64,000 bases of DNA from positions 62,001 through 126,000 of the forward strand of contig NZ_PYJQ01000009.1 in NCBI RefSeq assembly GCF_003024605.1. Direction: 5' to 3'. The stretch's first letter is position 1, and the number at the start of each line of letters is the position of its first letter. Below, piece by piece: positions 28,121-42,597 of this stretch. The position numbers and the translations under genes were made by a program. Below the pieces are notes generated by a model. The model searched no databases, was not told where the DNA came from, and worked only from the letters and a program-made list of their open reading frames with translations. This DNA is from Rhizobium sp. JAB6 (lineage in GTDB: Bacteria; Pseudomonadota; Alphaproteobacteria; Rhizobiales; Rhizobiaceae).

Positions 28121-29140
28121 TCAAGTCAGAGAAAACAGACCCAGGGCAGACCGCAACTCGGCAAGCGTTGCCTCCGTTCGCTCCCTCGCCTTTCGCGTGC
28201 CTTCACGCACGATCCCCATGACGTAATCCGGCTCGGCGGCATAATGCGCGCGGCGCTCCCGGATCGGCGCGAGCAGCGCTTGTAGGACATCCTCAAGATG
28301 TCTCTTGAGCGTGACGTCGCCAAGGCCGCCGCGGCGATAATGCGCTTTCATCTCTTCGACGAATTGCCGATCCTCGCAAAAGGCATCGAGGTAGATGAAG
28401 ACGACGTTTCCCTCGACCTTGCCGGGATCGCAGACGCGCAAATGATCCGGATCGGTATACATGCGCCGTACCGCATCCCTGATTTCGTCTGATGATGCCG
28501 AAAGCGGAATGGCGTTGCCCTGGGATTTGCTCATCTTCGCCTTTCCGTCAACGCCGGGCAGCCGCCCAACCTTTGGCACCATGGCAGCCGCCTCGACAAG
28601 CACATCACGCCCGATCTGCCGGTTCATGCGGCGAACGATCTCGTTGGTCTGCTCGATCAACGGTGCCTGATCCTCCCCGACAGGGACGACGGTCGCCTTG
28701 AAGGCGGTGATATCGGCCGCCTGCGCAACCGGATAGCAGAGAAAGCCGGCCGGCACATCGCGCTCGAAACCGCGCTGTTGGATCTCCGTCTTGATCGTCG
28801 GGTTGCGCTCCAGGCGGCTGACCGTGACGAAATTCAGGTAAAGCAGCGTCAGCTCCGCCAGTGCGGGCAGAGCCGATTGCACGCAGATCGTCGTCAGCGT
28901 CGGATCGATGCCGACGGCGAGGTAGTCGATCGCGACTTCCAGAACGTTGCGGCGGACCTTTTCGGGATCGCCGGCATTGTCGGTGAGCGCTTGTGTATCC
29001 GCCAGGAGCAGAAATTGCTCGTGGCTGCACTGAAGAGCGACGCGGCTTTTCAGCGAGCCGACATAGTGGCCGAGATGAAGTGGACCAGTGGTCCGGTCGC
29101 CAGTCAGGATGACAGGACGGGTATTGGTAGCAATATGCAT
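28121..29140 (-). CDS. trpS: Tryptophanyl-tRNA synthetase
   Basis: 339 residues from ATG 29140, with GGAG 6 nt upstream. Class I synthetase: [11 protein letters not shown] is the HIGH motif and [11 protein letters not shown] the KMSKS loop. [12 protein letters not shown] at the N-terminus, with [10 protein letters not shown] and [10 protein letters not shown], are further family blocks. The ribosome binding site lies in a hairpin that is part of a leader with a tryptophan-rich ORF (29141-29296), suggesting the gene is induced when charged tRNA(Trp) is scarce. cckA lies upstream on the same strand, ending 220 bp away. Confidence 0.96.
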
Positions 29141-29260
29141 TCTTAGCTCCGCAAAAGGAGCCGCCGCAATCGGGAAGGGAAAACGGAAATGGACCTGCCG
29201 GATCACGGCGGCAGGGTCGATTTCAAGATATGACGACTGCCGCTCCTAGAAGGAGCGCCA
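29141..29260 (-). promoter_or_regulatory. Attenuator-like leader region of trpS
   Basis: On the minus strand four complementary segments follow the leader Trp codons. Segment 1 (29251-29257, CGCTCCT) pairs with segment 2 (29241-29247, AGGAGCG), 7 bp. A middle hairpin pairs 29209-29215 with 29194-29200, 7 bp. Segment 3 (29157-29161, GCTCC) pairs with segment 4 (29146-29150, GGAGC), which is the trpS Shine-Dalgarno. Segment 2 can instead pair with segment 3 (GGAGC/GCTCC plus two more pairs across a G-G mismatch), which would free the Shine-Dalgarno. No T-run is present, so control would be translational. Confidence 0.65.
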
Positions 29261-29296
29261 CCACATTTGGCAAATGGTCTTGGCAAGGTCGATCAT
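29246..29296 (-). CDS. trpS leader peptide with tandem Trp codons
   Basis: A 16-codon ORF reading MIDLAKTICQMWWRSF, ending in TAG at 29246-29248. The two adjacent TGG codons (29258-29263) abut the first strand of hairpin 1:2. No Shine-Dalgarno precedes the ATG, but a possible promoter (TTGCCG, 15-bp gap, TATAAG, last base near 29306) would start transcription at or next to the ATG. Leaderless translation is known for the rhizobial trpE(G) leader peptide. An in-frame upstream ATG would give a 29-residue version. Confidence 0.6.
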   Translation of the reverse strand: MIDLAKTICQMWWRSF

Positions 29297-29360
29297 GGAA
29301 GGTTGCTTATACCGTTGCGCCGCAGTCGGCAACATGGGGAAGGCGCAAAACGCCTCTCAC

Positions 29361-31979
29361 TTAGTTCTTGTCCAGCGTCTCGCGTACAACGACGGCAAGC
29401 TGCTTCAGCGAGAATGGCTTCGGCAGGAAGCCGAATTGGGCGTCTGCCGGCAGGTTGCGGGCAAAGGCATCCTCGGCATAGCCCGAAACGAAGATGAACT
29501 TCAGATCCGGATATTTCTTGCGCAGTTCGCGCAGCAGCGACGGCCCGTCCATTTCCGGCATGACGACATCGGAGACAACGACATCGACCTGGCCATCGAG
29601 CTCCTCCATGATGTCGAGCGCCTCGACGCCGGAGCCGGCCTCGTGAACGGTGTAGCCGCGCGTTTCGAGCATGCGCTTGCCGCCGCGGCGGACCGCCTCT
29701 TCGTCCTCGACAAGCAGAACGACTGCGGACTTGCCTGTGAGATCGGCCGGCTCTTCCGTCGACGCGGCGACACCCGCGTTCTGGTCCATGGCCGCTACAT
29801 CGCGGCCTTCCACCACTTTGGCTTCCGTCACCGAAGGCATTTCCACGATGTGCCGCGGCAGGAAGATGCGGAAGGTCGTTCCCTTGCCCACTTCCGACTC
29901 CGGCTGGATATAACCGCCGGACTGCTTGATGATGCCGTAGACCATGGCAAGACCGAGGCCGGTGCCCTTACCCACTTCCTTGGTCGTGAAGAAGGGCTCG
30001 AAAATCTTGTCCATGATCTCAGGTGCAATACCGGTTCCGGTATCGCTGACCTCGACGAGCACCATGTCCTCGTGGGGAAGATAGGGATAGTTGAAGGCAC
30101 TGACATCGGCCGCGCGCAGATTGCGGGTGCGCAGCGTCAGCGTGCCGCCGCCCGGCATGGCATCGCGGGCATTGACGCAGAGGTTGATCAGCACCTGCTC
30201 GAACTGCGAGAGATCGGTTTTAACGGGCCAGAGGTCGCGCCCGTAATCGACGTCGAGTTTGACATGCGTGCCCGACAGCAGCCGGTCCACCAGCATGCGC
30301 AGATCACCGATCACGTCCGTCAGGTTCAGGATCGTCGGCCGCATGGTCTGCTTGCGCGAGAAGGCGAGCAACTGCCGCACCAGCACGGCCGCACGATTGG
30401 CATTGCGCTTGATTTCCATCAGATCCGCAAAGCTGGCATCGGAAGGCCGCGCCTGCAGCAACAGGTGGTCGGAAGACAGAAGGATCGCCGTCAGTACATT
30501 GTTGAAGTCATGCGCAATGCCGCCAGCAAGCGTGCCGACGGCATTGAGCTTTTGCGTCTGCGCCATCTGTGTTTCGAGCGCCTTCTGCTCGGTCACTTCG
30601 ACCGCATAGACGATGGCGGCTTCTTCCGGCGCCTCGTCGGTCTGGTCGATGACGGCGTTGATATAGAAGCGGAAATGCCGCGTCTCGTCCTTCGGATTGC
30701 GGGAATCGATCGGCGGAATATCGCCCTGCCGGTCCTTGGCGGCCGCCAGCGCCTGCTGCAGCTGCGGCCGGTCGCTTTCGTTGACGACGCTCTCCAGGGC
30801 AGCGCCGCGCTCGATATCGTCGCGCGAGACCAGATCCGAAAAAAGCTTCAGGAAAGGCGCATTCGTCCTAAGAATACGGCCATTGCCGTCGACGGACGCG
30901 ATCGCCATCGGCGTATTGTTGAAGAAGCGGCTGAAACGCATCGCGGCGGCAGAGGCCGATTGTTCGGTATCCCCACCATTGTGGCGGGTCAGAACGATGG
31001 TGCGGCTCTCGCCGGGAGCGCCGTCACGCATCGACGTGACGCTGTGGACGATCTGCACCGGCAGGCTCTGCCCGTTGAAACGGCGCAGATCGAGATCGAG
31101 GGTCACCGTCTTCTTCAATCCCGGCTCGGCTTGGACGGACTGAATGAGTGCCAGCCCCTCGCCGGCGACAAGATCGCCGATCGTCATCGAGCCCGGCACG
31201 AATTTCGTCAGATCGAAGCCCAGCCATTCGGCAAGCGTCGCATTGAGATAGAATATCTCACCCTTGCGCCCGGCGGAAAAGAAGCCGGCCGGCGCATGGT
31301 CGAGATAATCGATCGCGTTCTGCAATTCCTTGAAGAAACGTTCCTGGTCGTCACGCTCGGAGGTGATGTCGGTGATCTGCCAGATATGCAGGATTTTGTT
31401 GCCGCCTTGCTCGGCCGGCAGCACGCGAGCCTTCAGCCGGTACCAATGCGCGCCATTGCCGCTTCCGTCCATCGGCCCGAGCGGCTTCAGCAGGCGGAAC
31501 TCCTCCGATCCCTCCTTGCCGTCGCGCAGGCCATTGGCAAGACGATAGAGAGCCTCGTTGGACTCGCGATTCCGCGACAGCAGCATCTCCAGCGACTGCA
31601 CTTCCGTCGCCTTGGTCGCACCGGTCAGCCGGCCATAGGCGGCGTTCGCATAGACAATGCGCCCCTTCTCGTCTGTGATCAGGGTTCCGTCGGGTTGGCT
31701 GTTGAGGAAGGAGCGCGCCAGACTGTCGGACTGCGGCTGCGGCATGACCTCGACAAAGCCGATGATCGAAGAAACGAGGAAGAAGATGCCGACCATGGCG
31801 AGAATGCCGAGGCCGCCGAGAACCGCTTCATTGTCCAGCTGGTTCTTGAAGACGACGAAGGCCGCCGCGGCGGCCACGAGAACGAGCGCAAGCAGGATGA
31901 TGCGCAGCACCGTTCCCGAACGAACCCCGCGATCCACCAGCGGCACGCTATACTCGTCGGACGGACGCTGCTTCGTCAT
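29361..31979 (-). CDS. cckA: Cell-cycle hybrid histidine kinase CckA
   Basis: 872 residues from ATG 31979 (GAGGGG 5 nt upstream). Two membrane spans near residues 24-45 and 54-78, three PAS-like modules (about 87-205, 222-332 and 347-462), HisKA with the phosphoacceptor in [11 protein letters not shown] (His near 490), an HATPase with [10 protein letters not shown] and [11 protein letters not shown], and a C-terminal receiver (about 752-872) with [13 protein letters not shown]. CckA drives phosphorylation of CtrA through ChpT in alphaproteobacteria. It is divergent from a FliO-like gene. Confidence 0.96.
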
Positions 31980-42120: not shown

Positions 42121-42500
42121 GCGGAAGAGCGGCCCTTCGAGCGGCTGCGCTTTTCATGGAATCTCTGAGCCGCGCTATCTCTTTGCTTCCCATAATTCCG
42201 GACGGAAACAGCTGCGCACTTTCCCCGGGATTGCCCCAGCGCAAAGGGTATCGAGCAATGACGGCTGTGGGAAATCGGTCACTATATGTTGTGAATCGTG
42301 CGATTTCGCAGCTCTTTGAACTTTACGAGAAGCTGAAATAGGTTTTTCCTTATCAATTACAGAGACAAATGCACCGGTCGATTCGAAAATGGCCGGGCGG
42401 ACGCCTCATACGGATCGATTTCGAGTGCCTGCGTCGGCGGGTTTATTCGCTCTTCGGCGCAGTCGGGGTTTGTTTTTCGAAGCATGCGCTAAATGTTCTC

Positions 42501-42597
42501 CTGGCGCGTCCTGAAGCCGCAGGTGTTTCCTCCCTTGCCTGCGGTGATGCGCCCGCCTTGCCTCGCTCGCTGCACCAGCTGAGCGGGGCATCTTTTT
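42501..42597 (+). ncRNA. Trans-encoded sRNA, alpha-r8/MmgR-like
   Basis: Intergenic 42121-42659 has no credible ORF but a compact two-hairpin transcript. Arm GGCGCGTC (42503-42510) pairs with GATGCGCC (42546-42553). Inside it CCGCAGG (42517-42523) pairs with CCTGCGG (42538-42544), exposing a loop that contains TTTCCTCCCT, an anti-Shine-Dalgarno sequence. A terminator hairpin follows (42560-42568 with 42581-42589) and then TTTTT to 42597. The loop decamer is the conserved motif I recall for the alpha-r8 family (MmgR of Sinorhizobium, which limits polyhydroxybutyrate). CTAAAT at 42489-42494 is a possible -10; 42121-42488 otherwise shows nothing. Confidence 0.65.

Follow-up and report, generated by a model that had tools for sequence, protein, structure and literature searches.

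A probable leader-peptide attenuator, likely translational, of an auxiliary tryptophanyl-tRNA synthetase gene in Rhizobium sp. JAB6

Results

The cckA-trpS2 intergenic region

The window, by which we mean the whole stretch of 64,000 nucleotides that was analysed, carries on its minus strand a short leader open reading frame (ORF) between cckA and a tryptophanyl-tRNA synthetase (TrpRS) gene, trpS2. The features are given below with the basis of each assignment.

29327-29332, minus strand: putative -35 box (TTGCCG), its first T 36 nt 5' of the leader ATG (sequence; TTG position in relatives)
29306-29311, minus strand: putative -10 box (TATAAG), 9 nt 5' of the leader ATG (sequence)
29246-29296, minus strand: leader ORF, MIDLAKTICQMWWRSF and stop (translation; comparison with relatives)
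29251-29257, minus strand: segment A (CGCUCCU) (A:B pairing; conservation)
29234-29247, minus strand: segment B (AGGAGCGGCAGUCG), partner of A or C (duplex energy; alignment; nascent folding)
29201-29219, minus strand: segment C (CGACCCUGCCGCCGUGAUC), a hub with B, D and E as possible partners (covariation)
29194-29200, minus strand: segment D (CGGCAGG) (C:D covariation; relatives with a T-run)
29160-29171, minus strand: segment E (GAUUGCGGCGGC), partner of C (12 bp) or, via its 3' end, of F (C:E covariation)
29157-29162, minus strand: E3 (GGCUCC), the strand that sequesters the Shine-Dalgarno (SD) sequence (E:F covariation)
29145-29150, minus strand: segment F (GGAGCU), including the trpS2 SD GGAG (sequence; alignment)
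28121-29140, minus strand: trpS2, auxiliary TrpRS II-type, 339 aa (profile and structure matches)

Translation of 29296-29246 bore out the predicted 16-codon ORF ending in Met-Trp-Trp-Arg-Ser-Phe-stop, with the tandem Trp codons at 29263-29258. The three hairpins of the original prediction were all found in the sequence. Hairpin 1:2 (CGCUCCU/AGGAGCG, 7 bp, 29257-29251 with 29247-29241) lies directly 3' of the Trp codons, and the leader stop codon falls inside it (A:B in our lettering). The second hairpin is CCUGCCG/CGGCAGG (7 bp), and the third, GGCUCC/GGAGCU (6 bp including one G-U), holds the GGAG SD of trpS2, whose ATG is at 29140. The 191-nt region folded more strongly than its shuffles (z -2.64; 2 of 200 equally good). 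No terminator-like site was returned by a pattern scan of 29100-29400, in agreement with the predicted lack of a T-run after the hairpins. A known Rfam element was ruled out as the identity of the leader, as covariance models for the T-box riboswitch and other families gave no match at E<=1 in 29080-29340. Elsewhere in the window, 42438-42594 (plus strand) matched the Rhizobiales sRNA Atu_C7 in Rfam at 69.2 bits.

The leader ORF is probably leaderless, as had been suggested, judging from related leaders. Of the Rhizobiales-type leaders, 32 have an in-frame ATG; none of these has an SD-like motif 5' of it, and in 26 the distance from the ATG to the first Trp codon is 11 codons. A TTG was found within -46 to -29 in 30/32 leaders (control windows, 37/160), and 27/32 occurrences lay at 35-37 nt. 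A -35 box 35-37 nt before the ATG would by its position place the transcript start at the ATG. The -10 candidate TATAAG is present at 29311-29306 as predicted, but it is separated from the -35 candidate by 15 nt, which does not make a good sigma-70 site, and a promoter scan of 29100-29400 found no sigma-70 site on the minus strand.

The downstream gene is an auxiliary TrpRS II gene

The gene after the leader had been called trpS. Its product is a tryptophanyl-tRNA synthetase, matching tryptophan--tRNA ligase TIGR00233 at 236.5 bits (cut-off 176.75), but it is not the housekeeping enzyme. Its nearest solved structures were 1yi8 and 2a4m, both Deinococcus TrpRS II (405 and 402 bits; next 224), and another TrpRS gene was found elsewhere in the genome (G000:C1; 275.6 bits), for a total of two. 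By these matches, the gene behind the leader is a second enzyme of the Deinococcus TrpRS II type. Genes of this type were sporadic, occurring in 3/199 genomes sampled from the family (judged from E-values), 18/397 of the order and 33/385 of the class, and 26 of the 33 in the class had <60% identity and came from genomes of about 0.6-2.1 Mb. A Gln was present in 128/128 TrpRS II rows where the canonical TrpRS of the same genome has His, a site that we take to be the indolmycin contact His43 of Bacillus stearothermophilus TrpRS. TrpRS II and the indolmycin-resistant TrpRS1 are covered in a review (PMC9437257).

Two observations on individual genes were made. The trpS2 copy at L170/L129 (G437) has an intact leader element but may be broken, as its reading frame seems to be shifted from about residue 130 on. 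At L085 (G161) and L049 (a Salinarimonas metagenome-assembled genome), a TrpRS II gene lacking the leader element directly follows a gene for a flavin amine oxidase resembling VioA (scores of 229 and 211 bits, under the NCBIfam cut-off of 600), and the pair may be an operon for a Trp-derived compound with a self-protecting TrpRS.

Distribution of Trp-codon leaders

Conservation of the TGG pair had been set as a test of the original prediction. Under a strict rule, a Trp-Trp (WW) leader ORF was found close upstream of 29 of the best 80 of 587 trpS2 relatives in public genomes, compared to 35/2204 other 350-nt windows and 0/80 on the reverse strand. Canonical trpS genes of the family had one in 1/28 cases, and this single case (L093) looks like chance. 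All 22 further alphaproteobacterial genes of at least 68% identity that were examined (L113-L128 and L130-L135) were preceded by a Trp-codon leader, with one Trp codon only in L118 and L130; this comparison and the alignment below were made without L129, a partial match whose leader was seen in L170. Among the 23 divergent rows L136-L158, no WW leader was found, and a single-Trp ORF satisfying a loose rule in 6/23 was taken as chance. These rows are TrpRS II genes, 52-59% identical, of small-genome alphaproteobacteria and are perhaps the only TrpRS genes there.

Many alpha- and betaproteobacterial TrpRS II genes are preceded by a Trp-codon leader, in most cases where TrpRS II is an auxiliary enzyme. 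For the 50 of the best 80 (of 587) loci in which auxiliary status was counted, a WW leader was present in 30/38 genomes with a further TrpRS versus 1/12 with TrpRS II alone (Fisher p 2e-5). Phylogenetically independent pairs pointed in the same direction without reaching significance (sign test, median p 0.125 for WW leaders and 0.0625 with single-Trp leaders counted).

Pairing support across relatives

Pairing was assessed in an alignment of 33 Rhizobiales-type rows, which includes L009, whose leader has lost the Trp pair and the in-frame ATG, and in a dereplicated set of 23 rows. An alignment-free test compared the duplex energy of native and swapped partners; z values are given below for 33 and 23 rows, respectively, and six control segment pairs gave -0.8 to +2.3.

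A helix between C and E, missed in the original prediction, is 8-13 bp long across rows. Over 33 rows, standard pairs occupied 91.3% of its cells versus 81.1% when shuffled, double-change cells numbered 38 versus 14.5, and the covariation score was 0.375 versus 0.199; none of 500 shuffles was as high on these three measures, and slid registers paired in 31-62%. The alignment-free z was -8.8/-7.0. The paired sequences are GCCGCCGUGAUC/GAUUGCGGCGGC in the window, CCGCCGUUCA/UGAAUGGCGG in Bradyrhizobium, GCCGCCGCGAGAAA/UUUUUCGUGGCGGC in L124 and GCCGCUGU/ACAGUGGC in L084.

C:D was also supported (z -7.0/-5.6), with the signal mostly in its distal part and a nearly invariant inner stem. E:F gave z -5.2/-3.9, in keeping with the prediction that the trpS2 SD lies within a conserved alternative hairpin. 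As aligned, E:F was 69.7% paired, and its support comes from the inner four pairs; the outer two fail in 22/33 and 25/33 rows and shift register. A:B was paired in 97.9% of cells, with double changes in 3/6 pairs, and gave z -2.5/-1.7; its covariation is slight because it is nearly invariant. For B:C, z was -3.2/-1.3, the covariation not being significant after dereplication. Taken jointly, A:B, C:D and E:F were 84.9% paired versus 81.9% shuffled with 13 versus 3.9 double-change cells, and further standard pair types were no more frequent than in shuffles (16 versus 15.2). Within the commoner C subtype (19 rows), C:D (-5.3), C:E (-4.9) and E:F (-2.5) remained, and the signal was gone for A:B (+1.4) and B:C (-1.0).

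Terminator and SD types of the leader

As the terminator pattern we took a GC hairpin with a T-run behind it, no more than 140 nt from the Trp codon. It was matched by 7/7 rows of one alphaproteobacterial clade (L020, L024, L038, L040, L132, L133 and L135; support 100/96), by 18/26 beta- and gammaproteobacterial rows with a leader and by 3/33 Rhizobiales-type rows (L005, L119 and L130), that of L005 being the SD hairpin itself. In L119, C:D is followed by GTCTTTTT. The C:D hairpin is the counterpart of the terminator hairpin in relatives. L132 has a WWRSF-stop/A:B segment identical to that of the window but a real terminator at C:D, which makes B:C the antiterminator by position. With attenuator segments numbered in the usual way, the window has regulatory codons next to segment 1 and mutually exclusive 1:2, 2:3 and 3:4 pairings; the 3:4 intrinsic terminator with a U-run that marks a classical transcriptional attenuator was not found there.

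In an enzyme tree from which 17 Acinetobacter rows had been left out, the terminator-type alphaproteobacterial genes fell within a 45-row set (80/91, branch not starred) that also holds 29 SD-type rows, 6 without a leader and 3 with another leader. For the SD type, the starred branches force at most one change. These last three (L015, L016 and L022, betaproteobacteria) scored 51-69 bits with the SD-type model, outside its training set. From these sequences, two outputs appear to exist: an intrinsic terminator and a terminator-less form, mainly in Rhizobiales, that would act on the RBS.

Folding models and proposed mechanism

Whole-leader folding of SD opening under ribosome masks was set to 30 C, other folding was run at default settings, and pseudoknots could not be represented. 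With A masked, the mean modelled cost of opening the RBS was 5.7 kcal/mol when C:E was forced, 9.4 for C:D, 10.2 for B:C and 8.0 unforced. The cost was lower with C:E than with C:D in 31/33 rows, or 33/33 for the SD alone, and C:E therefore behaves in the model as the opening helix. Equilibrium folding by itself did not distinguish free, stalled and stop-codon states, either in the probability of an unpaired SD (0.14, 0.15 and 0.16; p 0.35) or in opening cost (9.9, 9.1 and 9.3; p 0.20), and the energy difference between C:E and C:D did not shift consistently with the masks. In transcripts ending 5' of D, B:C had 6.2 bp with no ribosome, 10.5 bp with the stalled mask and 2.8 bp with the stop-codon mask. 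Once D is present, C:D outweighs B:C at equilibrium in 31/33 rows, even when stalled, and the model therefore needs kinetics.

We hypothesized that the RNA between cckA and trpS2 acts as a ribosome-mediated attenuator, responding to tRNA(Trp) charging and controlling the translation of trpS2, a reading to which we assign a probability of about 0.72. Segments A, B, C and D would constitute a classical attenuator core. With ample Trp-tRNA, the ribosome would reach the stop codon within A:B, leaving B masked or held by A, and C:D would form. This would lock the C loop, so that E:F covers the SD and keeps trpS2 off. If Trp-tRNA runs short, through starvation or an inhibited housekeeping enzyme, the ribosome would stall on the Trp pair and cover A. 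B would then pair with the 5' part of C and prevent C:D, and the freed 3' part of C would pair with E, taking E from F and opening the SD. The comparison of relatives establishes the leader, the conservation of A:B, the compensatory changes in C:D, C:E and E:F and the homologous terminator version. From these we infer ribosome stalling, the order of events, the direction of control and that C:E opens the SD in vivo. The direction was deduced from the homologous terminator version, with B:C as the expected antiterminator, and from the sense that it makes for a synthetase gene.

Alternative readings of the leader

The original prediction had proposed an ermC-like scheme of four segments in which stalling frees B, B pairs with E3 and the SD is freed. 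The complementarity of segments 2 and 3 that it requires is real (AGGAGC/GCUCCU in the window) and pairable in 90.9% of cells in 33 rows, but shuffled partners reach 90.7%, there were no extra double changes, and the alignment-free z was -0.2/+0.4. The central A-U pair is lost in 9/33 rows, and the strongly covarying C:E helix would be left unexplained. B:E was accordingly rejected as the switch, although most rows retain the potential to form it and, on the sequences compared, the pairing itself is unsupported rather than excluded; the scheme as a whole is highly improbable. The proposed check of 1:2, 2:3 and 3:4 by covariation thus gave a divided answer, with A:B conserved but covarying little, B:E without compensatory signal and E:F covarying. 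A different role for C:D, as a weak terminator, intrinsic or assisted by Rho, in Rhizobiales-type leaders with the SD hairpin secondary, would accord with the 7/7 clade rows that match the terminator pattern, with the covariation of C:D, with the sequence after C:D in L119 and with a pyrimidine-rich linker read 3' of C:D in the window. Such a role is rather unlikely, as the pattern is found in so few of the 33 Rhizobiales-type rows (one of the three being the SD hairpin) and not in the window, and the covariation of C:E and E:F would be purposeless.

The C:E covariation could also be accommodated by a pseudoknot, in which the loop of a closed C:D pairs with E and stabilises the closed RBS instead of opening it. 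The loop, 8 nt long (CCGUGAUC), can pair with GAUUGCGG, and most of the covarying C:E pairs fall within it, so covariation cannot tell a pseudoknot from an extended C:E. However, the extended helix also keeps its pairs at the C:D stem positions (columns 64-67), where a single cell departs from standard pairing, though part of this conservation may be due to E:F, and forced C:E lowers the modelled opening cost. We regard the pseudoknot as unlikely, though it carries appreciable weight. It is scarcely credible that the small ORF exists for a conserved peptide or as a by-product and that the pairing is incidental: the N-terminal length is near constant (11 codons before Trp, as above), but its residues vary, mainly the part adjoining and inside segment A is kept, and non-coding helices covary. 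On balance, we read the leader as a genuine tRNA(Trp)-charging attenuator with a six-segment switch, probably translational.

The same architecture upstream of other genes

A covariance model, R1, was built from the 33 Rhizobiales-type rows and used to search 397 genomes of the order. Of 26 matches >50 bits, 18 were at trpS2, in exactly the 18 TrpRS II genomes of the order (17 of these matches were in the R1 training set; that of G437 was not), and 8 were in other genomes. All eight (L174, L175, L177, L179 and L181-L184, in G433, G384, G432, G277, G410, G383, G275 and G352) stand before isochorismatase-like genes, five of them translated and three with GTG starts. The products scanned matched PF00857, with the isochorismatase 2fq1 and PhzD (1nf9) as nearest solved relatives (PhzD/EntB-like). 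The leader peptides end in KFYWRFL, SFYWRFL, RYWRFL or GYWRFR, presenting Phe, Tyr and Trp codons. C:E of at least 9 bp was possible in 8/8, in one with a mismatch, and a TTG lay 35-36 nt 5' of the chosen ATG in 7/8 (44 in L179). The eight leaders belong to two genera, and wider searches of the two families, covering 8 and 11 genomes, yielded no additional copy. Across the class (385 genomes), 5/5 matches >50 bits were at trpS2.

Further observations concern neighbouring genes and weaker matches. At L190 (G384), trpE and trpG are found about 4 kb away from the isochorismatase gene. A Tyr-Tyr leader, MIKNAPIAANYYATLP and stop, with a terminator-like hairpin precedes tyrS at L187/L194 (G570) and L208 (G516); L187 is a weaker R1 match, and its gene matches TIGR00234 at 371 bits. 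A third DNA match, in G419 (L209), has no Tyr-Tyr leader and a different gene downstream. L188, another weaker R1 match, has a leader ending in WWRTS-stop before what looks by eye like trpE(G).

Taken together, we give an even chance to the proposal of a portable RNA device, in which one aminoacyl-tRNA sensor core is joined to either a terminator or a C:E/E:F toggle. The translational form would serve two unrelated genes, an antibiotic-tolerant backup TrpRS via Trp codons mainly in Rhizobiales and an isochorismatase via Phe/Tyr/Trp codons in two other genera.

Discussion

In the usual textbook account, attenuation by amino acid starvation regulates transcription termination, as by the leader peptides trpL of the E. 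coli and rhizobial trp operons. The trpS2 leader has in common with these attenuators the tandem Trp codons abutting a 1:2/2:3/3:4 core, and the terminator-type trpS2 leaders share their design. It differs from them in its output, the SD of a synthetase gene, in its extra segments E and F and in having no terminator. In the translational attenuation of ermC, macrolide-stalled leader translation decides whether the SD is sequestered. The erm leaders are alike in this dependence of the SD on leader translation, but at trpS2 the ribosome is expected to stall at Trp codons and the SD would be freed by C:E, not 2:3.

Trp-codon leaders before synthetase genes are known from Streptomyces. The S. coelicolor trpRS1 attenuator is reportedly the subject of experimental work by Vecchione and Sello. 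An attenuator was predicted for S. avermitilis trpS2 (PMC1262725), and the S. lividans TrpL2 leader is MMTRTCTQLWRAA and stop (PMC8079986). As described in the accessible parts of these two papers, the Streptomyces trpS attenuators resemble ours in placing a Trp-codon leader before a TrpRS gene, and that of S. lividans also in its leaderless leader and the lack of a uridine-rich stretch downstream (PMC8079986). They belong to a different phylum and are presented there as classical transcriptional attenuators, and those parts report no C:E/E:F switch at the RBS. For an alphaproteobacterium, Caulobacter crescentus, the accessible part of PMC4117421 lists trpS with a small leader coding sequence whose translation was seen by ribosome profiling, which is again alike. 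The original prediction knew of no such attenuator. In the open-access literature, with subscription papers mostly outside our scope, we found no description of leaders of proteobacterial TrpRS II genes, but the Streptomyces trpS2 attenuators and the Caulobacter leader coding sequence precede the present one. The sensor principle is known, and it is apparently the RNA architecture and its output that are new for trpS2 and reused before another gene.

In the present leaders, the sensor of classical attenuation appears to be coupled to an RBS toggle in place of termination. As both leader versions occur on related genes in one enzyme tree, how the output changed can be followed and put to the test. 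The arrangement suggests how a spare TrpRS could stay silent until charged tRNA(Trp) runs short, and such silent-until-needed control is what an inducible backup against TrpRS inhibitors requires. The element would be a compact amino acid sensor whose leader codons appear to be exchangeable. If its proposed role before the isochorismatase-like genes is true, the aromatic products of chorismate would, through control of isochorismatase, decide how chorismate is shared.
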